64,000 nucleotides of DNA, taken from the NCBI GenBank assembly GCA_913775095.1, contig CAJYIW010000015.1:1-64000 (forward strand), read 5' to 3'. A program made the position numbers and the translations under genes. Under the pieces are notes generated by a model. It ran no database searches, had not been told where the DNA came from, and saw only the letters and a list, made by a program, of their open reading frames with translations. Positions 20,440 to 52,016 of the stretch are shown here, piece after piece (the first letter of the stretch is position 1; every line of letters starts with the position of its first letter). The DNA is from an uncultured Siphonobacter sp. Lineage in GTDB: Bacteria > Bacteroidota > Bacteroidia > Cytophagales > Spirosomataceae.

Positions 20440-20482
20440 TACTTAGCAACTATAGCATACGTAAAACACTCAAACCAAGGTG

Positions 20483-20526: not shown

Positions 20527-20530
20527 ACGA

Positions 20531-22407: not shown

Positions 22408-22470
22408 ACATTATTTCTATATTTTTTTACATTTCTGCTACCGCCTGGGTATCCTGGACTGCTAGTTTTG
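22408..22470 (+). promoter_or_regulatory. Putative HTCS-controlled promoter of the second SusCD pair
   Basis: Half-site ACATTAT starts at 22408 and ACATTTC at 22429, a 21-bp repeat. The -7 box TAGTTTTG (consensus TAnnTTTG) is at 22463-22470, 34 bp after the second half-site. The same geometry occurs at 40676-40738 and 51954-52016 on the minus strand. The leader to the ATG at 22619 would be about 140 nt. Confidence 0.65.
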
Positions 22471-34307: not shown

Positions 34308-35351
34308 TTAAGCAGTTTTTTCTTCGCCCCCTTCCGTGCGATACGGGCGAATGGGTTGAATCCGGCCCCGTTCATCGTGCACCAGCTTGGTTACTTTGAT
34401 GCTTCGCAAATGGGTAACGCCTTCGGATAAACTGGAGTCATGATAAAACAGGTACCATTGATCCCCGAATGCACAGATGGAATGATGGGAAGTCCATCCG
34501 ACTACGGGTTCCAGGATAACTCCGGCGTAGGTAAACGGACCATAGGGGTTATCGCCTATCGCATAACAAATCAAGTGAGTATCCCCCGTGGAGTACGAAA
34601 AATAGTATTTCCCCTGATACTTGTGTACCCAGCTCGCTTCAAAAAACCGTCGTTCGTTGTCACTGGCAATCAGCACTTCACCGTTTTCATCGATGATCTG
34701 GATTTCCCGGACTTCCTCCGCAAATTCGAGCATATCGTCCCTTAACCGGGCGACCCGTGGTCCCAGAGCCGGTTCGTTACCCGTCGGCTCCACGTGATTT
34801 TCATGGAAGGTATTCGCCCGGTAGGATTGCAACTGTCCGCCCCACAGGCCTCCAAAATACATATACGCTACGCCGTCATCATCCACAAACACCGCAGGAT
34901 CAATGGAGTAACTCCCCTGAATGGGTTCAGGCTGTGCGGTAAAAGGTCCGGCGGGCGAATTACTTACGGCCACACCAATCTGAAAAATACCATCGGCTTT
35001 TTTGGCCGGAAAATACAGGTAATAGTTCCCTGCTTTGGTAGCCGCATCGGGTGCCCACATTTGCCGGTCAGCCCAGGGCACGTCATTCACGTGCAGGGCC
35101 AGTCTGTGATCTACCGCGGGAGCATCGGGCGTTTCCATGGAAAAAACGTGGTAGTCTTCCATGGCAAAGTGACTGCCCAGATCGTCAAACGCAATCCCGG
35201 CATCGACGTCGTGCGAAGGATAGATATAGAGTTTTCCCTCAAACACGTGAGCGGAGGGATCCGCCGTATACAGATGCGACACCAGCGGCTGAGAAATGGC
35301 CCGCCTGCGGAGCTCCTCAAAATCAATGTGTGCAATGGAATCTTCGGGCAT
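34308..35351 (-). CDS. GH43 enzyme without signal peptide (cytoplasmic)
   Basis: A 347-residue single-domain GH43. Catalytic residues are in LYTADPSAHVFEGKLYIYPS (base Asp), GSYSIDPAVFVDDDGVAYMY (pKa modulator) and RRFFEASWVHKYQGKYYFSY (acid Glu). The N-terminus (MPEDSIAHIDFEELRRRAIS) is charged and has no signal peptide, unlike the two other GH43 proteins here. It lies 12 bp after the sugar symporter gene, so it probably hydrolyses xylo- or arabinoxylo-oligosaccharides inside the cell after import. Xylosidase versus arabinofuranosidase activity cannot be told apart by eye. Confidence 0.88.
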   Translation of the reverse strand: MPEDSIAHIDFEELRRRAISQPLVSHLYTADPSAHVFEGKLYIYPSHDVDAGIAFDDLGSHFAMEDYHVFSMETPDAPAVDHRLALHVNDVPWADRQMWAPDAATKAGNYYLYFPAKKADGIFQIGVAVSNSPAGPFTAQPEPIQGSYSIDPAVFVDDDGVAYMYFGGLWGGQLQSYRANTFHENHVEPTGNEPALGPRVARLRDDMLEFAEEVREIQIIDENGEVLIASDNERRFFEASWVHKYQGKYYFSYSTGDTHLICYAIGDNPYGPFTYAGVILEPVVGWTSHHSICAFGDQWYLFYHDSSLSEGVTHLRSIKVTKLVHDERGRIQPIRPYRTEGGEEKTA

Positions 35352-35363
35352 AGTAGGTAAAAA

Positions 35364-36851
35364 TTAGTCAATGGTTTCCAGGAGAGCCCGGCGTCGGGTC
35401 TGAAGGTCTTCTTCGAGCTGATTCTCCATTTTTTTATCAATCTGATAGCCGAACAGCAGAGCGGCGGCCCCTACGAAAATCAGGCCGGGAACAATACTAA
35501 CCAGCAAACGAATTCCCTGAACGGCGGTTTCGGTCTGTACGACTGCCTCGGCATCATAGCCAAACGTACTGAGTAACCAGGCGGCAATGGCTCCTCCGAC
35601 ACTCAGCCCTACTTTCAGGCCAAAAATCATGGCGGAGAAAACGATGGCCGTAGCCCGGCGATTGTTTTTCCACTCGCTGTAGTCGGCTACGTCGGCGATC
35701 ATGGCCCATAACAGAGGCGTCGTAATACCGTAGAGAAATCCGTGGAGCATCTGTAATATGAAAACCGTGGATACCGCCGTCCGGGGCAGCAAGTGAACAA
35801 GCAGCAGGCATAGTCCCGACAGAGCCAGGAAAATGGCGTACACGTTTCGCTTGCCAATCCGGTCGGCCAGCGACTTGGAACAGATGATTCCGACAATCAT
35901 CGCCAGCGTACTGGCGGCACTGACCACACTGGCCGTGGCGTAGGGAGCACTGCCGGACTTCCGAAATTCAGCCAGGGCCGCTTTGCCGGTGATTCCTTCC
36001 AGAAAATCCAGTAAGGTGCCGAAACCCAGGCTGTCCAGAAAAGCGACCTGACTGGCGGTGGTAAGGTAATAGCGAAAGTAAAAGATATTCATGCCTCCTT
36101 TGATGGCCAGGGTAATGAATACCAGCACGGTCAGTCCGAGCATGATCAGCCAGGGCCGGTTGTGAATCAGATCCGACAAGTCCTGCGACAGCGGTGTCTT
36201 TTGTTCCTGGGGCGGTGAGACGCGTTCCCGGGTGGTAAAAAAGGTAATGAGAAAACAGATCACGCCGATGATGGCAAATACCTTCATTACCTGCTCAAAT
36301 CCAGCGGCCTTATCACCCTGACCAATGGAAATGACCAGGGGCAGCAACAACACCTGAACGATGAACTGAGCAATCATTACTGCCACAAAACGGTACGAAG
36401 ACAGGCTGTTTCGTTCCTTCATATCCCCCGTCATGACGCCGCTCAGGGCCGAATAGGGCAGGTTGTTAGCCGAGTACACCATGACCAGAATCAGGTACGT
36501 GACGAAGGCGTAGGCTATTTTGCCGCTTTCACTGAACGAAGGCGTTGAAAAAGCCAGCAGAGCCATGACGCCAAAGGGAACGGAAGTCCAGAGAATCCAG
36601 GGCCGGAATTTACCCCATCGGGTCTGGGTTCGATCCGCGATGGCCCCCATGGCCAGATTGAACACGGCCCCGATCATCCCGCCCATGAGCATAATGAAGC
36701 TGGCATTACCGGGCGAAATTTTATAGACATCCGTGTAAAAAAACGTCAGGAAGGCCATCAGCGTCTGGAAAATAAGGTTCGCGGCCAGATCCCCCAGGCT
36801 ATAGCCGACTTTTTCCAGTACGGACAATCGAGTCGAAGTAGATGATTGCAT
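35364..36851 (-). CDS. GPH-family sugar:cation symporter (MFS, MelB/XynP-like)
   Basis: A 495-residue inner-membrane transporter with about 12 hydrophobic spans. KVGYSLGDLAANLIFQ at the N-terminus and GAIADRTQTRWGKFRPW in the first cytoplasmic loop are GPH signatures. A cytoplasmic Lys/Glu-rich tail (QIDKKMENQLEEDLQ) ends the protein. An insertion of about 45 residues in the second half (LDSLGFGTLLDFLEGITGKA) lies between two spans. It sits between GH10 and cytoplasmic GH43 with 7 and 12 bp gaps, so it probably imports xylo-oligosaccharides or aldouronic acids. Confidence 0.92.
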   Translation of the reverse strand: MQSSTSTRLSVLEKVGYSLGDLAANLIFQTLMAFLTFFYTDVYKISPGNASFIMLMGGMIGAVFNLAMGAIADRTQTRWGKFRPWILWTSVPFGVMALLAFSTPSFSESGKIAYAFVTYLILVMVYSANNLPYSALSGVMTGDMKERNSLSSYRFVAVMIAQFIVQVLLLPLVISIGQGDKAAGFEQVMKVFAIIGVICFLITFFTTRERVSPPQEQKTPLSQDLSDLIHNRPWLIMLGLTVLVFITLAIKGGMNIFYFRYYLTTASQVAFLDSLGFGTLLDFLEGITGKAALAEFRKSGSAPYATASVVSAASTLAMIVGIICSKSLADRIGKRNVYAIFLALSGLCLLLVHLLPRTAVSTVFILQMLHGFLYGITTPLLWAMIADVADYSEWKNNRRATAIVFSAMIFGLKVGLSVGGAIAAWLLSTFGYDAEAVVQTETAVQGIRLLVSIVPGLIFVGAAALLFGYQIDKKMENQLEEDLQTRRRALLETID

Positions 36852-36858
36852 AAGGTGA

Positions 36859-37980
36859 CTATTGATGAGCCTGGATTACTTTGTAGAAGGCAGGTTTGGG
36901 GTTATACTGTCGGTCAAACAACAGGGGGTAATTGGTTCTTCCCCGCACGGGCCAGCCGTTGAGCCAGCTTTGTCCATCGTGTACTCCCCAGAAGGTAACT
37001 CGGGATATCTTATCCCGGTGCTTCATGAATAACCTGAACAGCGACTCGTAATCACTGGCCAGTTGCTGCTGGAGCGAGTCCGGCAGCCCTTCCGTATAGG
37101 GATTTAAGCCTTTTTCATTCTTCATCTGCTGACTGACTTCCGCTCCCTGAAAATCCCGCTTCAGTACCTCGATGTCCAGCTCCGTAATGGCTACTTTAAG
37201 CCCCAGAGCCGCGTAGGCCAGAATGCTTTCTTCAATGTGCTGCAGGGGGATTTTTCCGACGTGCCAGTGTCCCTGAATTCCTACCCCATCGATTCTCACC
37301 CCTGCCGCCTGAATCTTTTTAACGATTTCCATGCAACCCGCCCGCTTGGCTGGCTGCTCATTGTTGTAATCGTTGTAATAGAGTTGTGTTTCCGGGGAAG
37401 CGGCCTGAGCCAGCCGGAAGGCTTCCACCAGATACCCCTCTCCTAACTTATTGAGAAAGATGGACTTGCGAAGCGTTCCATCTTCGTTTAAGGCTTCATT
37501 GACCACATCCCAGGACTGCACTTTTCCCCGGTATCGACCCGCTACGGTCCGAATGTGTTCGCTGAGAAATAGCTGAACGGAGTCGACACTTTTGAGCTTC
37601 CGCACAAAAGAAGGTAACTGACTGTGCCACACCAGCGTATGAGCGTTGATGGCCAGTTTATTCTTTTTTCCGAACTCCACGAGTTTGTCCGCATACGTGA
37701 AGTTGTATTCATTCCAGCGGGGGTGAATGACTTCCGCCTTCATGATGTTTTCGGGCGTAGCCGCGTTGAACTGGGCGGTAATGAGCTGCGTCTCTCTGGA
37801 GCTTTTCTCATCGATTTGTCCCGAATTCAACGCTGTTCCGATCAGGAAGTCGTCTTTGTAGACTTCTTTCAGGGAGGGGATATTCAACCGCAGGGGCGAA
37901 CCGGGTTTCGTCGTGAAATTGGTCAGGGCCAGAAAACCCAGTCCCAGTACAGCCATGGGGGTATACTTCAATCGTATCAT
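36859..37980 (-). CDS. GH10 endo-1,4-beta-xylanase
   Basis: A 373-residue endo-xylanase, a single (beta/alpha)8 barrel without a binding module. AHTLVWHSQLPSF, SWDVVNEALNEDG (acid/base Glu162) and VAITELDIEV (nucleophile Glu267) are all present, with VTFWGVHDGQSWLNGWPV near the end. An N-terminal hydrophobic stretch (MAVLGLGFLALTNFTT) acts as a signal peptide without an obvious lipobox. It sits four bases after GH115 and eight before the symporter. It cleaves the xylan backbone in the periplasm or at the surface. Confidence 0.95.
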   Translation of the reverse strand: MIRLKYTPMAVLGLGFLALTNFTTKPGSPLRLNIPSLKEVYKDDFLIGTALNSGQIDEKSSRETQLITAQFNAATPENIMKAEVIHPRWNEYNFTYADKLVEFGKKNKLAINAHTLVWHSQLPSFVRKLKSVDSVQLFLSEHIRTVAGRYRGKVQSWDVVNEALNEDGTLRKSIFLNKLGEGYLVEAFRLAQAASPETQLYYNDYNNEQPAKRAGCMEIVKKIQAAGVRIDGVGIQGHWHVGKIPLQHIEESILAYAALGLKVAITELDIEVLKRDFQGAEVSQQMKNEKGLNPYTEGLPDSLQQQLASDYESLFRLFMKHRDKISRVTFWGVHDGQSWLNGWPVRGRTNYPLLFDRQYNPKPAFYKVIQAHQ

Positions 37981-37983
37981 ATG

Positions 37984-40542
37984 CTAGTGATGAGAGGTTT
38001 CATAAAGGGTTTCTTCCGGCCCCAGATAGCTGGGTCTGACGTTTCCGAAATCAACTACCAGCTTTTGCAGCACTACGCCCGGACTTACCAGCCAGAACTT
38101 GATCGTGTGTTTTCCCGGTTTATCAAACGTGTGTTTACCCGATTTAAGGATGATGTTCTCCGCCGCCCACTGGTTCCAGATGCCCCGGTCACTCGTTTTA
38201 TCTTCCTGATTCAGACTCACGATTTGCGGCGTCTGATCGTCGATGGATATGGCATATTGCAATCCTTTTCCGGAACCATACACATTCAGCGTTGGGGAAA
38301 AATACGCGTGAATCGTCGCCTCTCCCTGGTCATAAGTATAGACGTCGTACTCGACATGAGGCGTGTTTTCGCCCGGCGTTTGTTCGGGAGCCGTCACCGG
38401 AAAAGCCGTCAGGGCCGAACCCGTTCGACCGTGGTCGGGGAGAACTTTCCAGGTGATCCCGGCCGTGTTCACCGCTCGGGTGAAATGATCCGCGGCCAGC
38501 GATACCCCCCGTTTTTCATCCTGGTAGAAAACCGGGCCTTTCACCCCGGCCGGAATTTGGGCCTTCCGGGTATTCTTCTGCTGAGCCGCAGGTCCGGGGT
38601 TCCCTTCTCCGCCAGATAAACGAAATACCTCCGGCATGCGTTGCCGGTTGGGCTGTTGCCAGTAGGTGTACCCAATGTGCGTCTGGCTCATGAGGTGGTT
38701 CCATTTGCCATTGTTGAGCTGGTGATACTGCCGGGTAATGAGCGAATCTTTTTCGTATAACTCCTGCACCCGATCGGCGTGAGTATTGGTTTCTTTCCAC
38801 TTCTGACGATACGCCTGATGATTCAGGGCCACCTGGTAATACATCTCGTTCAGATTGGAACAGGCCTGAATCGGGTGCAACACCAGCTGGAAAAAGGCAT
38901 CCCGTTGTTCCGCCGGAAGTTTGGCCTGTAGCCTTTCGGCCCGGACCCGCAGATCCCTGTATTCCGTTACGACCCGCTCCCATTCCCCGTTTTCCAGCGT
39001 ATAGGTTTTCGCGTCCAGTAATTCAGGTTTTCTCCGGGCATTATACTTGGCGTACCGGGATAAGAGAAAAGCAATTTCCTTCGCCTGCGACGGTTCAAAC
39101 TGGGCGGCGGCCCAGGCCTCCGTGTACGTTTGTAACTGATCGTGACCGATTTTTTCGGGATTCCAGGCGTAATCCAGGAAAAAGGAAATCGGGAATTCCA
39201 TGGGTTTCAAATCGCCCACGTTGACGATCCAGATGTCCTTCACCTCATGCTCCCAGGCCAGGTGCATCTGTTCCCAGATGCGGGGCAGTGGGTTGGTATT
39301 CAGCCATTTGTAATTGCGGGGTCCGCCCACGTAGTCGAAGTGGTAATAAATTCCGTATCCCCCTTTCCGGGGGCTGGCTCCGGGAGCCGGAAGTTTTCGC
39401 AGGTTCCCCCAGTTGTCATCACAAAGCAGCAGGGTTACGTCGTCGGGCACCCGCATGCCTTTGTCGTAATAATCCTGCACTTCTTTGTACAGGGCCCACA
39501 ACTGCGGTGTTTCTTCGGCTCGTTTTCCGGTTGCTTCTGAGATGATTTGCCGCTGGTCATCCACAATTTTTTCCAGCAGGGCGGTCGCGGTTTCCCGGGT
39601 CATGGGTTCGTCCCCGTCTCCCCGCATCCCAATGCTGACCACTTTCTCATTGGTGGCCCGCTTCATGCCTGATCGCCAGAATTCACGCAGTTGCTGCGGA
39701 TTGGTTTCGTAATTCCAGGGGCCTTTGCCTACTCGTCGCCATTCGTCGTGGGCCCGCATCAGGGGCTCGTGATGGGAGGTGCCCATCACGATGCCGTACT
39801 TGTCGGCCATTTTAATGTTGAGCGAGTCATCGGCATAAAAGGCATTTCCCCACATGGCCGGCCAGAGGTAGTTTCCTTTCAGACGGAGAATGAGTTCGAA
39901 TACTTTTTCGTAAAATTTATGGTTGAAGCCCCCAAATTTTTCTTTCGTCCAGCCTGATAACGCAGGAGCTTCGTCATTCAGGAAAATCCCCCGGTACTTT
40001 ACTTTCGGGGCATCCTGCAGGGAAGCATTTTTCTGGATATATACCTCTTTCCGCTTTTTTACCGGCACATCAGCCCACCAGTACCACGGCGATACTCCCA
40101 TTTGCCGGGATAATTCGAAAACGCCGTAGGCCACTCCCCTCCGGTCGCTCCCCTGAATGATCAGAGCCTGAGCAATGCCGGGAGCAGGTTTGGTCAGGTG
40201 CCTGATCTGATACGTCTCCCAGGTATTCGTGTTACCCAGAGCGGGAAGCTTTTGATCGGCGGTCAGTTTCTTCAGTAAGTCAGAGTGCTGGGTGGAACCG
40301 ATCGCAATGACGTTTGACTTTACTTGCTCCAGCGACTGCACGACGGGGATCTTTCGGCCCGTTACCCGCTCAATATCCTGCTGAAGCAACTGAGCCGAAG
40401 TCTGAACCAGTTCCGGTTCTCCGGGATTCACGTAGATTACGGCTTTGGTAAGGGGAAAATCCGTCGGCTTCTCGGCTATGAACTGAGCACGGGCCACGGA
40501 TACCCAAAAGATTCCTATAGCAATGACTATTCCAATTCTCAT
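37984..40542 (-). CDS. GH115 alpha-glucuronidase
   Basis: An 852-residue secreted enzyme that removes 4-O-methyl-glucuronic or glucuronic acid from internal xylose residues of xylan. The signal peptide starts at ATG 40542 (IVIAIGIFWVSVARAQ); the frame upstream (to 40662) covers the promoter and is not protein. Family blocks include RGVAYGVFELSRQMGVSPWY, WYWWADVPVKKRKEVYI, KYRGIFLNDEAPALSGW and LLLCDDNWGNLRKLP. A C-terminal beta-sandwich (about 690-852) includes GKHTIKFWLVSPGVVLQKL. It is the first gene of the operon down to GH95, with the promoter at 40676-40738. Confidence 0.94.
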   Translation of the reverse strand: MRIGIVIAIGIFWVSVARAQFIAEKPTDFPLTKAVIYVNPGEPELVQTSAQLLQQDIERVTGRKIPVVQSLEQVKSNVIAIGSTQHSDLLKKLTADQKLPALGNTNTWETYQIRHLTKPAPGIAQALIIQGSDRRGVAYGVFELSRQMGVSPWYWWADVPVKKRKEVYIQKNASLQDAPKVKYRGIFLNDEAPALSGWTKEKFGGFNHKFYEKVFELILRLKGNYLWPAMWGNAFYADDSLNIKMADKYGIVMGTSHHEPLMRAHDEWRRVGKGPWNYETNPQQLREFWRSGMKRATNEKVVSIGMRGDGDEPMTRETATALLEKIVDDQRQIISEATGKRAEETPQLWALYKEVQDYYDKGMRVPDDVTLLLCDDNWGNLRKLPAPGASPRKGGYGIYYHFDYVGGPRNYKWLNTNPLPRIWEQMHLAWEHEVKDIWIVNVGDLKPMEFPISFFLDYAWNPEKIGHDQLQTYTEAWAAAQFEPSQAKEIAFLLSRYAKYNARRKPELLDAKTYTLENGEWERVVTEYRDLRVRAERLQAKLPAEQRDAFFQLVLHPIQACSNLNEMYYQVALNHQAYRQKWKETNTHADRVQELYEKDSLITRQYHQLNNGKWNHLMSQTHIGYTYWQQPNRQRMPEVFRLSGGEGNPGPAAQQKNTRKAQIPAGVKGPVFYQDEKRGVSLAADHFTRAVNTAGITWKVLPDHGRTGSALTAFPVTAPEQTPGENTPHVEYDVYTYDQGEATIHAYFSPTLNVYGSGKGLQYAISIDDQTPQIVSLNQEDKTSDRGIWNQWAAENIILKSGKHTFDKPGKHTIKFWLVSPGVVLQKLVVDFGNVRPSYLGPEETLYETSHH

Positions 40543-40675: not shown

Positions 40676-40738
40676 CAAAAGTAGAAGACCAGCATCCGCA
40701 CCTGTGAGAACAAATGTATAAAAGAGTGCAACAAATGT
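40676..40738 (-). promoter_or_regulatory. Putative HTCS-controlled promoter of the GH115 operon
   Basis: Read on the minus strand, ACATTTG starts at 40738 and again at 40717 (21 bp apart). The -7 box TACTTTTG runs 40683-40676, 34 bp after the second half-site. The element at 40704-40741 is 31 of 38 identical to that at 51982-52019 in front of the third SusC. The predicted leader to ATG 40542 is about 130 nt. Confidence 0.7.
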
Positions 40739-40940
40739 TCAGCAATGATTGAACGTAAGGATTTATACGTCACAAAACCGCAGAAAAGCCACTTCCATTT
40801 CTGCCTGTAGTAGGTATAGTTCGTACATGAGTAGCAGGGAACGGGGAATAAAGTTGGGATGTACATAGATAAATAAAGTGTCAATTAAACATTTAATTTT
40901 CCTACGTAAAGCTAAAATCATAACTTTACTAATATATAAT

Positions 40941-40948
40941 TACATTTG
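40941..40948 (+). promoter_or_regulatory. Bacteroidota-type -7 box of the second HTCS gene
   Basis: TACATTTG fits TAnnTTTG. It lies 60 bp before ATG 41009 and overlaps the TTG codon at 40946 that opens the reading frame, so that codon cannot be the translation start if the box is used. No 21-bp ACATTT repeat stands at the correct distance, so this promoter appears not to be part of the HTCS regulon. Confidence 0.55.
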
Positions 40949-41008
40949 TTTGAGAAAAAACCAGCGTTAGGAGTCGTGTTGAGGCAGATTCAGGGATCTC
41001 CCCAGCGA

Positions 41009-44000
41009 ATGTTCAGGCTCTTATTTCACCAGCCATCCATGCGGTTTACCTATATTCTTCTTTGTATTTTACTAAGCTGTATCACGCTGCTGTTCAGCCG
41101 GGAGGCCCGGGCCGAAGAACCACAGCCGCTCATGTTTACTTCCCTTACGACTAAAGACGGCCTTTCATCGAATATCATTGCGGCTATTGTCAAAGACCGC
41201 TACGGGCTATTATGGGTGGCCACGGAAGATGGACTGAACCGATACAATGGGTCCCATTTTACGGTCTATCATCACGAAGAATCCAATCCCAGCAGCCTGG
41301 GCTCGAACGAGGTTTCTTCTTTATACGAAGATGCTGCGGGTCGTTTGTGGGTAGGGACGATCGAGGGATCTCTTCATTTGTACGACCGGGAGAAAGATCG
41401 TTTCATTCGGGTCAATGTGGGCCTCAATGTCTATTCCATTTGCAGCGATGGGCAGGGCCTGCTGTGGGTAGGAACGCATTCCGGCGTTTTCAACGTCAAT
41501 CCCCAAACGCTGAAAGTCACCCGGCCAACGATCAAAAATTATTCTCTGGTAGAAGGGAAACCCTGTCGCCGGCTCTTTCAGGATCGGCAGAATCGGATCT
41601 GGATTGCGACCAATGACGGACTGATCGTGTATCAGAAAACAACCAACCAGTTTAAAGCCTATCTGCACGACCCCCAGGATTCCAGCAGCCTGGCGAGCCG
41701 AACGGCCATGTGCATTACTCAGGATAAGCAGGGACGCATCTGGGTGGGTACGCAAAACGGGCTTAACCTGCTGTTGCCCGATGAAAGCGGATTCAAAACG
41801 TTTCGCTTTCAGAAGGACGATCCCGCCTCCATCAGCAATAATACGATTTATTCCATGGAAAGCGACGAGGCTGATCGTCTCTGGATCTGCACGGAAAATG
41901 GCCTGAACATCAGAGATGGCAAGACCGGGAACGTAGAACGGTATCTCCCTAACCCGAATGTCCCTTTTAGTTTGTCCAATCGCTCCGTGAAGTGCCTGTT
42001 CATGGACTCTCAGGGTATTATCTGGCTTGGAACCTATCAGGGAGGGCTTAATAAGTACGACCGAAACCTTACACTCTTTGGCTTACAAAAAAGCCGGCCC
42101 GGCGATCCCACCAGCCTCAGTGCCCCTTTTGTTACCTCGTTTGCCGAACACCCGAACGGAGATGTGTGGGTAGGAACGGATGGCGGGGGCTTACACCTCT
42201 ATCACCGCAAAACCAGCCGATTCAGCCGCGTGAAGCTTTATTCAAATGAAGGGACCGAACTACCGGATTTAGCCATTCTCTGCATGACCCTGGCTCCGCG
42301 AAATCAGCTCTGGATCGGGACTTTTCAGGAAGGTCTGTTTCTGCTGGACATAGTCACCGGAGCGTGCCGGCAGTTCAAAACGGGTATGTCCCAGTCTACC
42401 GTTAATCACAATGATATTTTCTGTTTAAAAACCGACCGGACCGGTAAGGTATGGATTGGCACCAACGGTGGGGGGCTGAATTGCTACGATCCGGTTCGCC
42501 GGGAGTTTAGTTACCTGAATCCGCCCGCCCGCCCGCCCCGCATTCCACTCAACGCCTACATCCGAGCCATTGAAGAAGATCGGGAGGGGAATCTCTGGAT
42601 CGGTTCCTTCGGGACGGGCCTTGCGGTACTGAATCCGGTCAGTCAGCAGGTTATTCGCTATGACAAGGGAAACAGCAAGCTGCCCAGCAATCGCATTACG
42701 TCCATCTATGCGGACCGAAAAGGCTTGGTCTGGGTGGGCACCAATGGAGAAGGGTTAACCCAATTTAACCCCACCACCCGTTCGTTTCTCACCTACAAAG
42801 GCTTACCCAATGGCATCGTGAATAAAATTCTGGGCGATCAGGAGGGAAGAATCTGGGTCAGCACGAATAAAGGCCTGAGTAGCCTGGAAGACGGCGGAAC
42901 CCGTTTTACCAATTACACCGCTCATAACGGCCTTCAGGACGACATTTTTGCGTACGGGGCCGGGATTCAGGCTTCTGACCATACCCTGTTTTTTGGTGGA
43001 ATTCAGGGCTTTAACTTTTTTACTACCGGAACAATCAAATCCAGTACGCTATCGCATCCCATGCTGTTCACCGATCTGAAAGTAGGTAACAAAACCATTA
43101 CTGCTGCGGACTCGGGTATCCTGGCTGGCCATATTTCGCTGGCGAAAGTCATTAATCTGGATTACAAACAGAATTTCTCCATTAGTTATGCCTCGCTGAA
43201 TTATACCAATCCTCATCAGAATGCGTATCGGTATCGGCTGAAAGGCTACCAGGAAGAATGGTATTACGCGGGCAAAACTACCGTCGCTCACTATACCAAT
43301 CTGCACCCCGGAGAATACCTTTTCGAAGTACAGAACCGCATTCACGGCGACGTCTGGAACCCAGCGGGAGCGTCCATAACCATCGTCGTTCACCCTCCTT
43401 TTTATCTAACCTTTTACGCCTATCTTTTTTACGCGTTGGCCATCGGGTTTACGCTTTGGTACCTGCGTCGTCGGGGCATTCAGAACATCCGAAAGAAATT
43501 CACGGAAGAAGAGCAAAAGCGGGAAGAACAACGCATTCGGGAGCTGGATCAGATGAAAATCAAGTTTTTAACCAACCTGAGCCACGAATTCCGAACGCCC
43601 ATTTCCCTGATTCTGGCTCCGCTGGAAGGGATCCTGGCCAAAAAACATGAGCCGTCCATCGATGGTCAGTTACAAACCATCGAAAGAAATTCAAAGCGAT
43701 TGCTGAACCTGGTTAATCATCTGCTGGATTTCAAGCAAATTGAAGAGCAGGAACAAACCCTTCAGGTATCGTCCCGAAACGTCATTGCCTTTGTCAGAGA
43801 AACCTTCGATTCGTTTCAGGATCTTTCGGAGAAAAAACACATCGACTTTGGGTTTGAAAGCTACACCACCGAGCTGATGCTTTCCCTCGATTTCGATAAA
43901 ATTGAACGGGTGCTTTTCAACCTGCTCTCCAACGCGTTCAAGTTCACACCCAAAGGGGGTAAAATCAGCCTTACCGTTTTTTCTCAGGCCGATGAACAAA

Positions 44001-45109
44001 ATCCGGATCAGCACTGGCTGGGTATTTCTGTACGGGATACCGGCATCGGTATTGCTCCCGACAAACACCTGCAGATTTTTGAGCGGTTTTATCAGGAGGA
44101 AACGCAGCGGTCAATGGTTAATCCCGGCAGTGGCATCGGCTTATCCATTGCTCAGGAATTTGTTGTGATGCACGGCGGGAAACTTCGGGTGGAGAGTGAG
44201 CCGGGCCAGGGCAGTACGTTCACCATGTCCCTTCCGCTGGAGGAAGCGGTTGCTCCGCAAACGGCTGTTTCTCAGCCGGAAAGTACCGCCCCCGCAGTTC
44301 CGGAGCTACAGACGTGTGAATCCGGCGGCATTGACAACCGGGAGCGGGTATTGATCGTAGAAGATAACGACGAATTCAGGCATTACCTGATGGACCGGCT
44401 CAGGGATCATTACCACATTTCTGAAGCCTCGGATGGCCGTGAGGGCTGGCAAAAAACGCTTTCGACGCACCCCACGCTGATCATCAGTGACGTGGCCATG
44501 CCGCACGTCGATGGCATTGCCTTTAGTCAGAAAGTAAAATCAGACAAACGGACCAGTCACATTCCCGTGATTCTGTTAACTGCCTCCACGGGCGATCAGC
44601 AGCAGCTTCGGGGGCTGTTGTCGGGAGCCAATGACTACCTGACCAAGCCCTTTAATTTTGATATTCTGAATGCTAAAGTTCACAACCTGCTGGCTCTGAA
44701 CCGGGTTTCGAAGGGTTATTACTCCAAACGAATCAACCTGGTTAAGCCCGAAGTTGAAATTGAATCGGGTAATGAAAAACTGCTGAAAGAGGTCGCTTTT
44801 TTCATTGAAGAGCACATGAGTACATCGCTGCTGAGTGTAGAGAATTTAAGTAAACACGTCGGCATGAGCCGCGGAACCTTATACACCAAACTACTGGAAT
44901 TAACCGGCAAAACGCCCGTGGAGTACATTCGATCCGTCAAGCTGGAAAAGTCCGCTACGCTGCTGGAAAAGAGTGATCTGAATATCTCTCAGATTGCTTA
45001 TACCGTAGGTTTCCCGAATGCCAATTATTTCACCAAGTCGTTTAAAAGTCAGTTTCATATGCTGCCTTCGGAATATCGCAATGCCCGGCACGTGGCGAAT
45101 GAAGTCTGA
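41009..45109 (+). CDS. Hybrid two-component system regulator (HTCS), second copy
   Basis: A 1366-residue paralogue of the HTCS at 27415-31557. Two ATGs are possible: 41009 and 41039. The latter starts directly at the signal peptide (MRFTYILLCILLSCITLLFS). Then follow propeller repeats (LLWVATEDGLNRYNG, VWIGTNGGGLNCYD), a Y_Y_Y domain (YRYRLKGYQEEWYYAGKTTV), a span (LFYALAIGFTLWYL), HisKA with NLSHEFRTPISLI (His near 859), HATPase (DTGIGIAPDKH, GSGIGLSIAQEF), a receiver (IISDVAMPHVDG, Asp near 1161) and an AraC-type HTH (MSRGTLYTKLLELTGKTPVE). It is divergent from the GH115 operon. The DNA-recognition region is very like the first copy, so overlapping target sites are plausible. Confidence 0.95.
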   Translation: MFRLLFHQPSMRFTYILLCILLSCITLLFSREARAEEPQPLMFTSLTTKDGLSSNIIAAIVKDRYGLLWVATEDGLNRYNGSHFTVYHHEESNPSSLGSNEVSSLYEDAAGRLWVGTIEGSLHLYDREKDRFIRVNVGLNVYSICSDGQGLLWVGTHSGVFNVNPQTLKVTRPTIKNYSLVEGKPCRRLFQDRQNRIWIATNDGLIVYQKTTNQFKAYLHDPQDSSSLASRTAMCITQDKQGRIWVGTQNGLNLLLPDESGFKTFRFQKDDPASISNNTIYSMESDEADRLWICTENGLNIRDGKTGNVERYLPNPNVPFSLSNRSVKCLFMDSQGIIWLGTYQGGLNKYDRNLTLFGLQKSRPGDPTSLSAPFVTSFAEHPNGDVWVGTDGGGLHLYHRKTSRFSRVKLYSNEGTELPDLAILCMTLAPRNQLWIGTFQEGLFLLDIVTGACRQFKTGMSQSTVNHNDIFCLKTDRTGKVWIGTNGGGLNCYDPVRREFSYLNPPARPPRIPLNAYIRAIEEDREGNLWIGSFGTGLAVLNPVSQQVIRYDKGNSKLPSNRITSIYADRKGLVWVGTNGEGLTQFNPTTRSFLTYKGLPNGIVNKILGDQEGRIWVSTNKGLSSLEDGGTRFTNYTAHNGLQDDIFAYGAGIQASDHTLFFGGIQGFNFFTTGTIKSSTLSHPMLFTDLKVGNKTITAADSGILAGHISLAKVINLDYKQNFSISYASLNYTNPHQNAYRYRLKGYQEEWYYAGKTTVAHYTNLHPGEYLFEVQNRIHGDVWNPAGASITIVVHPPFYLTFYAYLFYALAIGFTLWYLRRRGIQNIRKKFTEEEQKREEQRIRELDQMKIKFLTNLSHEFRTPISLILAPLEGILAKKHEPSIDGQLQTIERNSKRLLNLVNHLLDFKQIEEQEQTLQVSSRNVIAFVRETFDSFQDLSEKKHIDFGFESYTTELMLSLDFDKIERVLFNLLSNAFKFTPKGGKISLTVFSQADEQNPDQHWLGISVRDTGIGIAPDKHLQIFERFYQEETQRSMVNPGSGIGLSIAQEFVVMHGGKLRVESEPGQGSTFTMSLPLEEAVAPQTAVSQPESTAPAVPELQTCESGGIDNRERVLIVEDNDEFRHYLMDRLRDHYHISEASDGREGWQKTLSTHPTLIISDVAMPHVDGIAFSQKVKSDKRTSHIPVILLTASTGDQQQLRGLLSGANDYLTKPFNFDILNAKVHNLLALNRVSKGYYSKRINLVKPEVEIESGNEKLLKEVAFFIEEHMSTSLLSVENLSKHVGMSRGTLYTKLLELTGKTPVEYIRSVKLEKSATLLEKSDLNISQIAYTVGFPNANYFTKSFKSQFHMLPSEYRNARHVANEV

Positions 45110-45152: not shown

Positions 45153-46244
45153 TTAGATTTTGACGCTTTGCCCCGAACGCACCGATTGATAAATGGCCTC
45201 TACCACCCGGATGTCCCGTAACCCTTCTTCGCCCGGAGCGATGAGGTCGGTCTGGTTCATCAGGGCCAGGCAATCCTCATCCAGCTGTTTGGCCTGCTGG
45301 TTTTTGATGGGAAAGTCAATATTCGTTCCATCCGACATACTTCCTTTATTGCCCAGGTAGCTGGACTGGGGTTCGAGTTTCAGCCAGCCCTTTTCGTAGT
45401 TCACCTGAAGGTGATTCATGTTGATGCCAAAGCTGGTCTGGCAGGCGGCCCGGGCTCCGCTGGGAAAGTCCAGCAAAAACATCATGGTTTCTTCGACTTC
45501 TTTGTAAATCTCCGGACGCGTCGTAGAAGCCTGAGCGATGACACGGATGGGTTCTTCGCCCGTGGCGAGTCGGGCTCCCTGGAGGGCATAGACGCCCATA
45601 TCCCCCATGACGCCGCCGCCGAGGGCTTTTTTCTGCTTCCAGTGGTCCGTTCGGGCGTCGAAGTATCCGGCGGCACTGGTAATCATCTTTACTTTCCCGA
45701 ATTTCTGTTCTTTGGCTACCTTCATCACCGCCTGAATATTAGGATCGTGCTGGCAGCGATACCCAATGGCCAGCTTTACTTTGTTCTTTTGACAGGCCGC
45801 AATCATGGCTTCACAATCCGCCACGGAAGGAGCCATGGGTTTTTCACAAAATACGTGTTTCCCTGCGTTAGCAGCCCTGACTACAAACTCCCGGTGCATG
45901 GAAGGCGGAAGCACCACGTAGACAACGTCGATGTCCGGGTTATTGGCAATCTGGTCGAAGTTCTGATAGTTGTAAATGTTTTTATCCGGGATCTTATACT
46001 TGGCCTTCCACTGCTGAGCTTTCGCGGGTGTACCCGTCACAATGCCAGCCAGATAGCATTTTTCGGTCATTTGCAGAGCCGGAGCCAGCAGATCCGTGCT
46101 GTAATACCCCAGACCCACCAGGGCAATGCCCAGTTTGTCTTTTTTGGGTGCCGTGGCGGCCAGCAGCGGGTTACCGGAAACGAGCGTAGCGGCACCGGCC
46201 AGGGATAAAGTCGTCAGAAACTTCCGTCTTTCGATGGGTAGCAT
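45153..46244 (-). CDS. Gfo/Idh/MocA family oxidoreductase with Tat signal
   Basis: A 363-residue NAD(P)-dependent sugar dehydrogenase-type protein. It starts with a twin-arginine leader (ERRKFLTTLSLAGAATLVSG). The Rossmann domain follows (LGIALVGLGYYSTDLLAPAL) and the family box HVFCEKPMAPSVADCEAMI holds the catalytic Lys of EKP. The C-terminal alpha/beta domain includes GGGVMGDMGVYALQGARLA. Export with a bound cofactor fits the Tat leader. It is convergent with the second HTCS and downstream of SusCD 3, separated from it by a 56-bp palindrome. It may oxidise a released sugar, or be a retaining hydrolase-like member; neither can be decided here. Confidence 0.9.
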   Translation of the reverse strand: MLPIERRKFLTTLSLAGAATLVSGNPLLAATAPKKDKLGIALVGLGYYSTDLLAPALQMTEKCYLAGIVTGTPAKAQQWKAKYKIPDKNIYNYQNFDQIANNPDIDVVYVVLPPSMHREFVVRAANAGKHVFCEKPMAPSVADCEAMIAACQKNKVKLAIGYRCQHDPNIQAVMKVAKEQKFGKVKMITSAAGYFDARTDHWKQKKALGGGVMGDMGVYALQGARLATGEEPIRVIAQASTTRPEIYKEVEETMMFLLDFPSGARAACQTSFGINMNHLQVNYEKGWLKLEPQSSYLGNKGSMSDGTNIDFPIKNQQAKQLDEDCLALMNQTDLIAPGEEGLRDIRVVEAIYQSVRSGQSVKI

Positions 46245-46366
46245 AGGTTGTGTGTTTGGATGCAGAGCACAGGTTCGGTAATCCTTTTCCTTACGCTGAA
46301 CATTCGGTTTAGATCGGCGGGAATTTACCCATTCTATGGAACAGGTAATCCCTCTATATATGATAT

Positions 46367-46422
46367 TATTCCAGAAACTAAAGAAAGAGGGAGATCTCCC
46401 TCTTTCTTTAGTTTCTGGAATA
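46367..46422. repeat. Perfect 56-bp palindrome
   Basis: Two 28-bp arms meet without a spacer at 46394/46395 (centre GAGGGAGATCTCCCTC). Every position pairs. It lies 45 bp after the third SusD stop and 122 bp before the oxidoreductase start, both on the minus strand. As RNA it would form a very stable hairpin that could end or protect the SusCD transcript. No T-run follows it on the minus strand. Confidence 0.9.
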
Positions 46423-46467
46423 CAGTCAGAACGGGTAAATACTTGACCTGACCTTTATGGTAAAATT

Positions 46468-48420
46468 CTATAAATAACCCGGATTCTGGTACGCTACTTT
46501 TTCATCCGGCGTCATATCCATGTTATCCAGCTGCCCCTGAGGAATGGGGCGGAGGAAGTGATAGTTTTCAATTTTCCGGGTATAGGTAACCGGCGTGTGG
46601 TCGCCCACGTTGGGTCCGCAAATCGTATACGTGGCGGCGGTTTCTTTCCATTTCTGGGTACGCACCAGATCATACCAGCGATACCCCTCGCCGTAGTATT
46701 CCCGCGAACGCTCGGCCAGGATGTAATCAATATCAATCGTTGCGGGCGTCGCGGCCATCATGGCTGCACTGTTGTCCACGCTACGGGCCATATTCCCCTG
46801 ATTGTACCAACGCCATTTACCCGCCCGGGCCCGGATGACGTTAATGAGATCGCGGGCCGTTTTTCCGGCCTGCGGAGTCGCTCCTTTCACCGCCGCTTCA
46901 GCCGCCACAAAATACAGTTCCGAGAATTTGGCGATGTTGAAGGGACGCGTACTGGCCGCATTAGGCTGACCCAGGCCGGTACCATTATCGGTCCGATACG
47001 TACCTAATTTCCAGAGGCCGGGATACACCAGGCGACTGATGCCCCGGGGAGAGACCACGTAATCTGCCCGACCCGGCAGAACGCCGAGGCCCATACCGCT
47101 TTTATACACCGAATTGGAGTAATCAATCGCAGCGGAAGGCTCCTGGTCCAGGAAAGTCATGATGGCATCGCCCGGACGAACCTGCAGGTTATTGGCATTG
47201 TATAAAAACTCATTGGTTACCCCCGCTTTGGGCCAGTTACCCCGGTAAGCCGTGGTAAAGGTTCCGTCGTAGCGGGAATCGTTGGTTTTATCCGCAAACG
47301 TTTTGGTAATGACCTCATGCGGAGGAGCCATCCGTACCCAGGGGCGACCCAGGGACTGAGCGGCTTCCCGCTGAACCGAGTTAACGGTGCTGGGGGCACT
47401 CCAGTTGGTTTTTGAACTGGTAATGCTGGTATAATTCCAGGTCATCATCCATACCGCAAAGTTATCCGCATCACCGCCGCCGGCGTAGGTCAGGCTAGAT
47501 CCGTTGAAAAGCTCGCTGGTTTCGGTGTGATCGGCGTAAAGCAGCAGTTCACTGTTGCGGTCATTCGAGCCGAGGTGTACGTCATAATACGTATTCTGCA
47601 GGCGGAAAGGGCCGGGATTGTCAATGGCCGCAGTGGCTACATTATACGCCTGCTGGAAATACCACTGAGCATCGTGACCGTCCGGATCCGTCCGGTTCGT
47701 AGCGGGATACGTGGGGATATTATTCGGATTTTGCAGCCACCAGCCATAGGTCAGGTACGCTTTAGACAGATACAGGCTCGCCAGCGTTTTGGTAACGCCT
47801 CCTACCACGCGTCCAGTGGCCGGCAGATCACTCACCGCCTTTACCAGATCCGGGAAGATGGCCTTAGTGTAGACCTCAGGCACGGTGTTGCGTTTCGATG
47901 TTCTAAGCGTGGAAATATTGAAAGCCAGTTCACCGGAGCCCAGATCCAGGGGTACACCACCGAAGGTTTGCACCAGCATGAAGTAATCAAAGGCCCGGAA
48001 AAAGCGAGCCTCGGCAATGAGTGCTTGCGAAATGCCTACCGCCGTTGCGTTCTCGATGACGCCATTGGCCGTGTTAATGTTCGGGAAGGCATTGTACCAC
48101 AGGTTACTCGCGTCGCTGGCCTGAGGAGTAATGAGCTGTCCCCCGGACAAATCATGCGTCTGAAAGCCGCTTCCGCCGCCGCTGGCTCCCCAGGTGGCCT
48201 CATCCGTCCCCGTCACGCAGGAGTTATAAAAATAGGCATTACCGAAGATCCAACGCAGGTGAGCGTACATACCCGTCAATCCACCGTAGACGCCATTTTC
48301 CGTTTTGAAGTATTCTGGCGTGTAAATGGCCCGGGGCTTTTCGTCTAATATCTTGGTACAGCTCGTGAACAACAGCGTCAGTACAGCTGCCGTTTTGAGA
48401 TTTATAGGAAAACGTTTCAT
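46468..48420 (-). CDS. SusD/RagB family lipoprotein, long form
   Basis: A 650-residue SusD-like surface lipoprotein, some 130-170 residues longer than the two others here. Lipobox LLFTSC at the N-terminus. The core has IAEARFFRAFDYFMLVQTFGG and ILAERSREYYGEGYRWYDLVR near the C-terminus, which ends in VAYQNPGYL. The extra length lies in the middle (about 250-480), probably in extended binding-site loops. It follows its SusC by 10 bp. Confidence 0.94.
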   Translation of the reverse strand: MKRFPINLKTAAVLTLLFTSCTKILDEKPRAIYTPEYFKTENGVYGGLTGMYAHLRWIFGNAYFYNSCVTGTDEATWGASGGGSGFQTHDLSGGQLITPQASDASNLWYNAFPNINTANGVIENATAVGISQALIAEARFFRAFDYFMLVQTFGGVPLDLGSGELAFNISTLRTSKRNTVPEVYTKAIFPDLVKAVSDLPATGRVVGGVTKTLASLYLSKAYLTYGWWLQNPNNIPTYPATNRTDPDGHDAQWYFQQAYNVATAAIDNPGPFRLQNTYYDVHLGSNDRNSELLLYADHTETSELFNGSSLTYAGGGDADNFAVWMMTWNYTSITSSKTNWSAPSTVNSVQREAAQSLGRPWVRMAPPHEVITKTFADKTNDSRYDGTFTTAYRGNWPKAGVTNEFLYNANNLQVRPGDAIMTFLDQEPSAAIDYSNSVYKSGMGLGVLPGRADYVVSPRGISRLVYPGLWKLGTYRTDNGTGLGQPNAASTRPFNIAKFSELYFVAAEAAVKGATPQAGKTARDLINVIRARAGKWRWYNQGNMARSVDNSAAMMAATPATIDIDYILAERSREYYGEGYRWYDLVRTQKWKETAATYTICGPNVGDHTPVTYTRKIENYHFLRPIPQGQLDNMDMTPDEKVAYQNPGYL

Positions 48421-48430
48421 AATGAGTCTT

Positions 48431-51400
48431 TTAGAAAGTCAGGTTAACTCCTACGATGTAATTTCTGGTCGAAGGCGTGTTGGTGCCGATGGTCAGGATG
48501 CGTCGAAGAGCCGAGGATAAGGGAACAGCCGCGTTTTCGTTGCCGTAGGAGTTGGTTTCCGGATCCATCCCCGACTCGCGGTGGTAAGGTGAAAACATAA
48601 CTACCGGATTCTGAGCGGTGAAGTACACCCGCAGGTTACTCATTCCCCATCTTCCCAGCACTTTGCTGTCCACGTTATAACCCAGGGTCATGGTACGTAT
48701 TTTCAGGAACGACGCATCAAAATAACCCAGCGTACTGCCGTATTTGGGGTTATCCCCTCCGATACCGCCGGGTGCGGGGTATTTGGCATCGGTGTTCTCG
48801 GGCGTCCAGTAATCCACTTTTACGTTGTTGCCAGCCCGGGCATTCAGGTTGTTGAGGTACCCCGAAGAACCGTAGAGCGTACTATTGAGTAAACCGCCAC
48901 TTTTGAATACGCCCACAATATTCAGGTCAAATCCTTTGTAAGCCACGCGGGTATTCAAACCACCCTGGAAATTGGGCTGCATGTTGAGAATCTGACGATC
49001 CGAAGAGTTAATGGCCCGCGTGGGGGCTCCGTCGGTGTTATAATCACCGGTGTATTTCACCCGGATCATACCGGGGTTGCCGCCGGGTTCGTAGATATTG
49101 CGGAACTGATCGTCGGCCTGCCAGAGTCCTACTTTTTCGTAGTCGAAAATAACGTTGATGGGGTGGCCCACAAACCACCAGTTTCCTTCGTCACGCTGTT
49201 GTCCGGAAGACAGGGAAACCAGTTTGTTACGGTTGGCATAGATGTTAAATCCGACATCCCAGGTCCAGCCGTTTGCGTTCTCCAGCACCGTTCCGTTGAC
49301 GTTGAATTCCAGACCTTTGTTCTGAGTCTGACCAATGTTGGCGGTGTAGCCTCCTACACCCGAGGTGGGCGGTAATCCGACGCCCAGGAGCACGTTTTTG
49401 GTCTGCTGTTCGTAGACTTCAACCGTTCCTGACAGGCGGTTGTTAAAGGCCTTAAAGTCCAGACCTACGTTAATGGTGTTGGAAAACTCCCATCCCAGGC
49501 GTGGGTTCGGAGCGTTGGAGACGTAAAATCCGGTGGAGTAATTAGCATCGCCGAAGTTGTAAGGACGGGTAGAAAGCAGCCCAAGGGTTTCGTACGGATT
49601 CACGGCCTGATTGGAGGTCTGGCCGTAGCCCACTCTCAGTTTCAGCTGGTTAATCTGCGAAACGCCACTCATGAATTGCTCTTTGGAGATATTCCAGCCC
49701 GCTGAAATCGCCGGGTAGGCATTCCACTGGTGGCCTTTGGCCAGCCGGGATGAACCGTCGGCCCGGAAGGTAACGCTCAGCATGTACCGGTCATCGTACG
49801 AGTACATCACCCGACCCATGTAGGACAACAGGCCCCACTGGTTATAACCCTGATTGGCCGGGTTTACCGTTATGATTCCGTCGGCCCGACCCAGGTTATA
49901 GAACTGGAACGCATCGGAAGGAATGTCCCGGGCTCCCACGGACGACGAGTTAAACGTATTCTGCTGAGCGGAGTATAAACCCACCGCGTTAATCTCGTGT
50001 TTGCCGAACTTGCGATCGTAACTCACCAGGTTTTCAATGGCCCAGTTAAGAGTGTGCGAGTTATTGATTCCAGCCGTCGATTCATTCAGGGGGTTACCAC
50101 TGAACACGCCTTGTCCGGTGTAGTTTCCTCCCGTACTTTGCCGGTAGTTCAGGCCCAGGTTCGCTCTGTATTTCAGACCCGTAACTCCGGGAATCTGGAT
50201 TTCAGCAAAAATGGTGTTATATGAACCGTAGGCCCGGGTCTGGTCAATGTAACTGTCGCCCAGGGAGTTGAATCGTTCCAGCGAAGGCACCCATTGCGGA
50301 CCAGACGTCTGCTCCTGAATGAGCGTTTTCATGGTTCCATCGGCATTATAGGGATTGGCAATGGGTGATCTTCCCAGGGCCATTCCTACCGCAGGAATGT
50401 TGTTACCATTGTTAACGGTAAAGTTGGAATTGGTTGAAAAACCTACCCGGAAATGTTTGTTAATATCCTGCGTAATCGAGGCCTGGAGTGAATAACGCGA
50501 GAAATCCTGCAGGGGCACCACGGCATTTTCCCGGTAATAGCCTAACCCAAAGGAATAACTTCCGTTCTCGGAGCCGCCCGACACGTTGATGTCGTGACTA
50601 CTCATCAATCCGGTCCGGTACACTTTATCCTGCCAGTCGGTATTGACATCATTGGATTCATCAATCGTGTTCTGGAACCGTTGGAGACTGGCGGCCCGTA
50701 AAGCGGCAAACTCCGGCCCGTTCATCATCGGGTATTTGGCAAAAACGGTCTTGGGACCATGAAAGCCATTGTAAGAAAACGTAGCTTTCTGCCCTCTTTT
50801 GCCCGTATTGGTAGTAATGAGAATGACGCCGTTGGCCCCCCGGGAACCATAAATGGCCGTCGCGGAAGCATCCTTCAGAATATCAATGCTCTTGATATTA
50901 TTGGCATTAATATCCGTAATAGACCCCGAGAAAGGGATACCGTCCAGTACGATCAGGGGAGCATTATCTGCCCGGAGGGAACGTTGGCCCCGGATCAGGA
51001 TTTCCATGGCCGCTCCGGGTTTGGTGGAAGTTTGGGAAATGTCCACGCCCACCACCCGGCCCTGTAAGGCCTGCGATAAGTTCGGTGCCGGTACTTCCCG
51101 CAGAATATTGCCAGTCACCGAAACGACAGAACCCGTCACGGCCTCCTGACGCTGCGTACCGTAACCAACCACCACGACTTCATTCAACACCTTATCATCA
51201 TTGGAAAGGGCTACGTTTACTACGGTCTGAGCACCAATGGCGACTTCTTTGGGAGCATACCCGACTAAGGAAAAAATCAGGGTTGCGTCGCCTTCCCGGA
51301 GGGTAAGCTTAAAGTTACCGTCCTGATCGGCCGTGGTTCCACGGGTCGTTCCCTTGATTAATACGTTCACGCCCGGCAGCCCCTCTCCGTTTTCTCCGGT

Positions 51401-51586
51401 CACTTTACCCGTGATGTCCCGATCCACGGTTACTTTTCGGCCCGATCGGGTAGCTTCACGCATACGAACGGGGGGATTAGGTGCGGCCATACTGACCTGA
51501 GTCAGCACCACCAGCAGTACTACTTGCAGCAACGGAGATTTTAAATCCCTGCTGCGGACCTTCTCAAGCGTAGAAAATCGATGCAT
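48431..51586 (-). CDS. SusC/RagA TonB-linked outer-membrane receptor
   Basis: A 1051-residue importer without an STN domain. A carboxypeptidase-D-like domain starts at about 57 (DITGKVTGENGEGLPGVNVL). The plug includes NEVVVVGYGTQRQEAVTGSV and DILKDASATAIYGSRGANGV. The barrel ends in TRNYIVGVNLTF. It is paired with the long SusD downstream. Its predicted HTCS-type promoter lies far upstream (51954-52016), leaving a leader of roughly 360 nt. Substrate is inferred to be xylan-derived from that shared promoter. Confidence 0.95.
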   Translation of the reverse strand: MHRFSTLEKVRSRDLKSPLLQVVLLVVLTQVSMAAPNPPVRMREATRSGRKVTVDRDITGKVTGENGEGLPGVNVLIKGTTRGTTADQDGNFKLTLREGDATLIFSLVGYAPKEVAIGAQTVVNVALSNDDKVLNEVVVVGYGTQRQEAVTGSVVSVTGNILREVPAPNLSQALQGRVVGVDISQTSTKPGAAMEILIRGQRSLRADNAPLIVLDGIPFSGSITDINANNIKSIDILKDASATAIYGSRGANGVILITTNTGKRGQKATFSYNGFHGPKTVFAKYPMMNGPEFAALRAASLQRFQNTIDESNDVNTDWQDKVYRTGLMSSHDINVSGGSENGSYSFGLGYYRENAVVPLQDFSRYSLQASITQDINKHFRVGFSTNSNFTVNNGNNIPAVGMALGRSPIANPYNADGTMKTLIQEQTSGPQWVPSLERFNSLGDSYIDQTRAYGSYNTIFAEIQIPGVTGLKYRANLGLNYRQSTGGNYTGQGVFSGNPLNESTAGINNSHTLNWAIENLVSYDRKFGKHEINAVGLYSAQQNTFNSSSVGARDIPSDAFQFYNLGRADGIITVNPANQGYNQWGLLSYMGRVMYSYDDRYMLSVTFRADGSSRLAKGHQWNAYPAISAGWNISKEQFMSGVSQINQLKLRVGYGQTSNQAVNPYETLGLLSTRPYNFGDANYSTGFYVSNAPNPRLGWEFSNTINVGLDFKAFNNRLSGTVEVYEQQTKNVLLGVGLPPTSGVGGYTANIGQTQNKGLEFNVNGTVLENANGWTWDVGFNIYANRNKLVSLSSGQQRDEGNWWFVGHPINVIFDYEKVGLWQADDQFRNIYEPGGNPGMIRVKYTGDYNTDGAPTRAINSSDRQILNMQPNFQGGLNTRVAYKGFDLNIVGVFKSGGLLNSTLYGSSGYLNNLNARAGNNVKVDYWTPENTDAKYPAPGGIGGDNPKYGSTLGYFDASFLKIRTMTLGYNVDSKVLGRWGMSNLRVYFTAQNPVVMFSPYHRESGMDPETNSYGNENAAVPLSSALRRILTIGTNTPSTRNYIVGVNLTF

Positions 51587-51953
51587 ACTTTTCTTCTGAT
51601 TTAATAATGTATTTGAGATGTAAAGGCGTACTCTTTCCGGCCATTTTCAGCATTGAAATGGAACAGGGTCATCAAGACCGGAGGGGCAGAGGATGGCCTG
51701 ACAGTTTTTAAATCGTTCGCAGTCCCGGGGAATCCTGTCGGAATCAACCAGCGTAATGGACAAGCCTGGAAAAATAAAACTACCTTTTTACGATATACGC
51801 AGCTCCCGATTACGTCCCCACTGAAGTAGGTCTCAGCGGCAGGGCATCCTTTTCATGGGTGTACTTTAGCGTCTTTTTTTAGTTGGAGATTTACATGTAG
51901 AGGAGCAGAAACAGGGGTGTATTTTATGGTATTGTTTTTAATTAATCACTGAA

Positions 51954-52016
51954 CAAATGTAATTATAACCGGAAGCCAAGCGTGAGAAGATTTGTATAAA
52001 TAAATGCTACAAATGT
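51954..52016 (-). promoter_or_regulatory. Putative HTCS-controlled promoter of the third SusCD pair
   Basis: On the minus strand ACATTTG starts at 52016 and ACAAATC at 51995 (21 bp). The -7 box TACATTTG runs 51961-51954, again 34 bp from the second half-site. The upstream half is the better match; the downstream one deviates after ACA. The remaining 51587-51953 would be an untranslated leader; I see no known riboswitch in it. Confidence 0.68.

Follow-up and report, generated by a model that had tools for sequence, protein, structure and literature searches.

Genes and repeat elements of the locus

The stretch of DNA that we analysed (64,000 nucleotides from an uncultured Siphonobacter sp., hereafter the window) carries two HTCS genes, around which Pfam places two SusC/SusD pairs together with GH43, GH10, GH115, GH95 and esterase genes (Table 1). 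In both HTCS1 and HTCS2, a single polypeptide combines a propeller sensor of the periplasmic type with HisKA, HATPase, receiver and AraC-type HTH domains, as expected of an HTCS. Ahead of four sets of genes lies the same arrangement, in which two ACATTT-like half-sites start 21 bp apart and a TAnnTTTG −7 box begins 34 bp past the start of half-site 2. At the SusC3 element, half-site 2 reads ACAAAT, with 2 mismatches to ACATTT. The sequence-only reading had described three of these elements, and on re-inspection their places, their orientations and both spacings (21 bp and 34 bp) were all exact; the identity of 31/38 that it gave for the GH115 and SusC3 elements was reproduced as well. All three of the transcription units to which it assigned a shared promoter pattern therefore stand, but the count was too low, as the promoter of a GH43 gene (20531–22204, minus strand) had been overlooked. 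The fourth element, ahead of this gene, has the usual 21/34 spacings and one mismatch. This element and the SusC1 element are adjacent and point away from each other, and the distance between the starts of their first half-sites is 42 bp in the window and in three congeners (G002, G003 and G005), but 44 bp in G004. Between the four window sites, the gaps from half-site 2 to the box are identical at 3 to 13 of 21 positions. The order of the GH115, GH10, MFS and GH43 genes is identical in G002 and G004.

Table 1. Elements and genes of the locus, with the fifth match in the same genome (positions in the window unless a contig is named).
Feature	Position	Strand	Details
GH43/esterase genes	12528–22204	−	Two GH43, SASA esterase and four Esterase-family genes; behind the fourth element
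Fourth (GH43) element	22304–22366	−	Half-site 1 from 22366, half-site 2 from 22345, −7 box TACTTTTG at 22311–22304
SusC1 element	22408–22470	+	Half-site 1 from 22408, half-site 2 from 22429, −7 box TAGTTTTG at 22463–22470
SusC1 and SusD1 genes	22619–27354	+	Behind the SusC1 element
HTCS1, 1384 aa	27415–31569	−	Pfam: propeller, Y_Y_Y, HisKA, HATPase, receiver, AraC-type HTH (residues 1296–1374)
GH115, GH10, MFS transporter and GH43 genes	34308–40542	−	Behind the GH115 element
GH115 element	40676–40738	−	Half-site 1 from 40738, half-site 2 from 40717, −7 box TACTTTTG at 40683–40676
HTCS2, 1387 aa ORF	40946–45109	+	Pfam: architecture as HTCS1, HTH residues 1301–1379
SusC3, SusD3 and Gfo/Idh genes	45153–51586	−	Behind the SusC3 element
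SusC3 element	51954–52016	−	Half-site 1 from 52016, half-site 2 from 51995, −7 box TACATTTG at 51961–51954
Fifth own-genome match	C4, 222349		Correctly oriented; between the end of the third HTCS gene (C4:218352–222236) and a SusC-like gene

The boxes also touch on the annotation of gene starts. The longest GH115 ORF starts with a TTG at 40662, just 14 bases past the −7 box, and the ATG at 40542 is the likelier start. Before HTCS2 there is a TACATTTG box (40941–40948) with a lone ACATTT ~52 bp upstream (window 40889–40948), and a similar conserved stretch is found in G003 and G005; because this box overlaps the TTG at 40946, HTCS2 probably begins later. The SusC3 leader (51587–51953, minus strand) is long, with 375 nt from the box to the ATG here and 419–432 nt in four congeners, and its ATG-proximal end is the better conserved. 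A known RNA leader was not found at SusC3, the window having no Rfam family at the gathering threshold.

Specificity and conservation of the spaced pattern

At up to 2 mismatches, the window contains 4 matches to the full pattern, versus 0 in 100 dinucleotide shuffles. When half-site period and box distance were varied over a grid of 221 combinations, 21/34 gave 4 matches in the window (grid mean 0.04, runner-up 2), and the same combination gave 15 matches in the xylan loci retrieved from four other genomes (runner-up 6). Throughout the window's own genome (5.65 Mb), there were 5 matches at ≤2 mismatches and 1 for a reversed-pattern control, and 5/5 of the former stand before genes of loci with an HTCS gene. 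The fifth match, on contig C4, has a counterpart in G005; the gene that it precedes was named SusC-like by eye from its sequence. The expectation that a genome-wide search would return matches confined to HTCS-linked loci was thus borne out at ≤2 mismatches only. At ≤3 mismatches, specificity was gone, with 14 matches versus 108 for the reversed pattern. Nine of the 14 carry exactly 3 mismatches, including one that precedes a beta-helix gene of the third HTCS locus and one at 12952 of the window, within an esterase gene. Over six Siphonobacter genomes, ≤2 mismatches yielded 27 matches (19 of them xylan sites and 2 belonging to the third HTCS), and the reversed-pattern control yielded 8. The idea that the pattern is a code for xylan had to be given up: the core ACATTT is also used at the third HTCS locus, which has no assigned substrate, and is therefore not xylan-specific.

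The GH115, SusC3 and SusC1 elements are present with 21/34 spacing in five genomes of the genus, the window's own included. For the GH43 element, the box distance is 34 in four of the five genomes and 33 in G003, the one site among all elements of these genomes that departs from 34. We counted invariant columns over four site sets of congeners, omitting G003 from the GH43 set on account of its 33 bp. Invariant columns made up 76/84 of the first 21-bp unit, 50/56 of the first 14 bases of unit 2 and 31/32 of the box, versus 24/80 in the 20 bp separating half-site 2 from the box. Outside the element, the 5 bases immediately preceding unit 1 had 13/20, the more distant upstream stretch (−40 to −6) 31/140 and the downstream flank 46/188. 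As the half-sites and the box are near-invariant while the gap and the flanks diverge, selection acts on the two half-sites and the box; judged by these columns, the elements are phylogenetic footprints.

The sixth genome, G001, had 0 matches at ≤2 mismatches, and an HTCS1 orthologue was not found in it by search (best match 44%). It encodes homologues of HTCS2 (52%) and SusC3 (40%) side by side, and at this SusC3-type promoter visual inspection, done once the strict search had come up empty, revealed a diverged repeat with 21/34 spacing. With this find, which is post hoc, G001 was rejected as a counter-example.

Predicted operators of HTCS regulators

The four elements are very probably operator-promoters of HTCS transcription activators, a prediction made from sequence. 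That the repeat is the operator of an AraC-type HTCS beside a −7 box had been proposed at the outset, and the prediction is upheld by the HTCS-linked matches (5/5), the footprints and the occurrence of ACATTT pairs in 4/8 distant genomes (see below). In the mechanism that we envisage, two activated HTCS proteins would each place one AraC-type HTH on one of the two half-sites, whose separation of 21 bp, or two helical turns, would bring both HTHs to the same side of the double helix. Of the two half-sites, the nearer one spans the place that a −33 element would occupy and ends ~20 bp before the TAnnTTTG −7 box. Because it occupies the −33 region, a bound regulator could contact RNA polymerase and so replace the −33 element. 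We infer that the HTCS proteins would bind the predicted operators in a phosphorylation-dependent manner and activate from them, and that this activation would be class-II-like.

At araI1-I2 of E. coli, AraC binds with a 21-bp spacing and an overlap with the −35. The elements are like this system in their adjacent direct-repeat half-sites beside a promoter and in the HTH class of the regulator; they are unlike it in that the sigma and the −7 box are of the Bacteroidota type and that the regulator is a predicted membrane HTCS, versus AraC's soluble dimer. On induction, AraC monomers occupy adjacent I1 and I2 (PMC4486848).

Closer precedents come from HTCSs themselves. Using comparative genomics, Ravcheev et al (2013; PMC3878776) predicted the motifs of 16 Bacteroides HTCSs as direct repeats with a mean distance of 21 bp. 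The elements described here share with those operators, as portrayed there, two conserved direct-repeat sites ~21 bp apart, a place upstream of PUL genes and a regulator with an AraC-type HTH. They differ from them in belonging to another order and to other HTCSs, and in that the distance to the −7 box was measured here and is nearly constant. A fixed distance from HTCS sites to the −7 box was not found in the literature consulted and may nonetheless have been published. HTCS receiver-HTH proteins have been gel-shifted on susCD promoters with predicted sites (PMC11253607). The Bacteroidota housekeeping promoter consists of −7 TAnnTTTG and −33 TTTG, although no −33 motif was detected in Flavobacterium johnsoniae (PMC7366714); the TAnnTTTG box is common to it and to our elements, whereas the −33 region is here taken by half-site 2. 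The kind of control (21-bp HTCS repeats) is already known; the elements are a well-supported further case of it and bring a useful positional rule, which ties the known repeat to a near-fixed position relative to the Bacteroidota −7 box. Such a rule would aid the prediction of PUL regulons and the building of inducible promoters, and the pattern provides two HTCSs of a xylan locus outside the gut Bacteroides with a predicted operator that can be read throughout a genome.

For more distant bacteria, we used a set chosen by HTH similarity (19 stretches from 8 genomes, 339 kb, with five stretches shared with the self-similarity scans below). Here, ≤2 mismatches gave 0 matches at 34 bp, four at 33 bp and one in total over the other 33/35 spacing pairs. 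Behind the four 33-bp matches lie one GH43 gene, one gene of the GlcNAc-2-epimerase family and two genes judged SusC-like by eye. Exact ACATTT pairs numbered 4 at period 21, from 4/8 genomes, and ≤1 at each of 28 other periods. Several of these results count against the HTCS operator reading, namely that the HTH-chosen regions gave nothing at exactly 34 bp, that 4/8 of their genomes are without an exact ACATTT pair at 21, and that such pairs are found elsewhere too, with 6 exact pairs at period 21, and more at periods 14 and 22, in other regions totalling 2641 kb. A distance of exactly 34 bp was rejected as a phylum rule, since relatives show 33, as does the G003 GH43 site. L068 carries an exact 21/34 element ahead of a SusC-like gene; in this case the site drew attention before the HTH did.

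A self-similarity scan of upstream DNA across the phylum served as a test of the grammar, and our case is not rested on it; period 21 leads, weakly. With the 19 boxes from outside the genus that precede SusC-like genes, period 21 with distance 33 ranked first among 680 cells; 0/300 shuffles reached the observed mean at 33–34, and 71/300 matched the grid maximum in some cell. When all 91 boxes were used, the best cell was period 21 with distance 37, which 10/300 shuffles reached anywhere, and 5/300 shuffles reached the mean at 33–34.

Other HTCSs of the genus were covered by a box-anchored comparison of the fetched HTCS neighbourhoods. Near three of them (L147, L149 and L152), it revealed conserved sites at the corresponding place before the box, with C-rich half-sites and a best period of 22 or 23. 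A period of 21 for every HTCS of this genome was thereby rejected, and these sites also count against the operator reading. The HTH helices of the three read MSQ or LSQ, and KYFR; those of HTCS1 and HTCS2 read MSR and NYFT, and those of HTCS3 MSR and SSFS. No such site was found by this comparison near L150, L151, L153 or L154. That L150 and L151 are without one although their HTHs read MSR is a further point against the operator reading; by this method, MSR in the HTH is not sufficient for ACATTT, and the link from helix to site is therefore a lead only.

Tentatively, and with somewhat more doubt than conviction, we propose that HTCS promoters across Bacteroidota may share a rigid grammar and that the letters of their half-sites may track the two HTH recognition helices. 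In this grammar, half-sites would lie 21–22 bp apart, the nearer one starting 33–34 bp before the −7 box and replacing the −33 element. In the helix code, as it might hold for the genus, HTCS1–3 (MSR with NYFT or SSFS) would correspond to ACATTT, and MSQ or LSQ with KYFR to C-runs. If both were true, PUL regulons could be read from sequence alone.

Another AraC-family protein, or an unrelated regulator of xylose or xylan genes, could instead bind the repeats, with the HTCSs acting elsewhere. AraC-family proteins that are not HTCSs likewise use direct repeats, and G002 has a gene for an AraC-like protein (L181) close to the module. We nevertheless consider this improbable, because the fifth genome match is flanked by another HTCS gene and the SusC-like gene that goes with it, the sites remain with their HTCS where the modules are separated, and the recurrence in distant genomes was found by selecting on the HTCS HTH. 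That the resemblance is accidental, or reflects non-functional promoter DNA copied recently, might be argued from the frequency of lone TAnnTTTG and from the AT-rich SusC1/GH43 region, but is negligibly probable given the absence of matches in 100 shuffles and given gaps from half-site 2 to the box that differ among sites and diverge between species while the half-sites do not.

One regulon or two modules

With the four elements read as HTCS operators, there are two ways in which they could be wired. The region from 12 to 52 kb had been suggested to form a single xylan regulon, a proposal that fares poorly in the congeners. In G002 (contigs C1 and C5) and G004 (C43 and C192), the region is split over contigs, each part with its own HTCS and two elements. 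One part holds the GH95, HTCS1, SusC1/D1 and GH43/esterase genes, and the other the GH115, GH10, MFS, GH43, HTCS2, Gfo/Idh and SusC3/D3 genes. HTCS1 and HTCS2 are on different contigs in G005 too, and in congeners their orthologues adjoin the corresponding elements. In G003, two contigs end within the GH43 gene that connects the modules in the window, which is compatible with the joined module order. Since each module occurs separately in G002 and G004, with an HTCS and elements of its own, two adjoining HTCS modules are likelier, and the 12–52 kb stretch most plausibly consists of two neighbouring PULs. Under this assignment, which we regard as reasonably probable, HTCS1 would act on the SusC1 and GH43/esterase promoters and HTCS2 on the GH115/GH10 and SusC3 promoters.

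Two relatives are informative here. The HTH of L068 is identical to that of HTCS1 at 84/125 positions and to that of HTCS2 at 61/123, and its site matches the HTCS1-module sites at 19 and 17 of 26 positions and the HTCS2-module sites at 15 and 13. The HTH of G001 is closer to HTCS2 (73/125) than to HTCS1 (59/125), and its site matches the HTCS2-module sites at 17 and 15 positions and the HTCS1-module sites at 14 and 10. The site thus sides with the module of the closer HTCS in both (n=2).

The alternative is one xylan regulon, in which HTCS1 and HTCS2 would each bind all four sites. Their HTH regions are identical at 66/123 positions, with near-identical recognition helices, the core and the geometry are common to all four sites, and the modules are adjacent in this genome. 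The half-sites of SusC1 are also about equally similar to those of GH115 (17/26), in the other module, and of GH43 (16/26), and paralogous HTCS pairs such as BT4111/BT4124 have been proposed to share sites (PMC3878776). On balance, we consider a shared regulon rather unlikely: each module of G002 and G004 is isolated with its own HTCS and two elements, and the sites of L068 and G001 follow the module of the closer HTCS, the latter evidence amounting to two cases, in one of which (G001) the SusC is also a SusC3 homologue. The assignment to two modules suggests that neighbouring PULs can be wired separately.

Two further repeats were observed in the genus. G002 and G004 have an additional, weaker element with 3 mismatches (L184:15760 and L188:15956 (minus)), and the gene behind it encodes 1018 aa with a secretion tail and, in G002, a GH30 match below the Pfam cutoff. 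On the window's own contig 15, near 70.3 kb (L155:10340–10402), a different conserved 21-bp repeat lies 34 bp before TACATTTG, and it is also present in G002 and G003.
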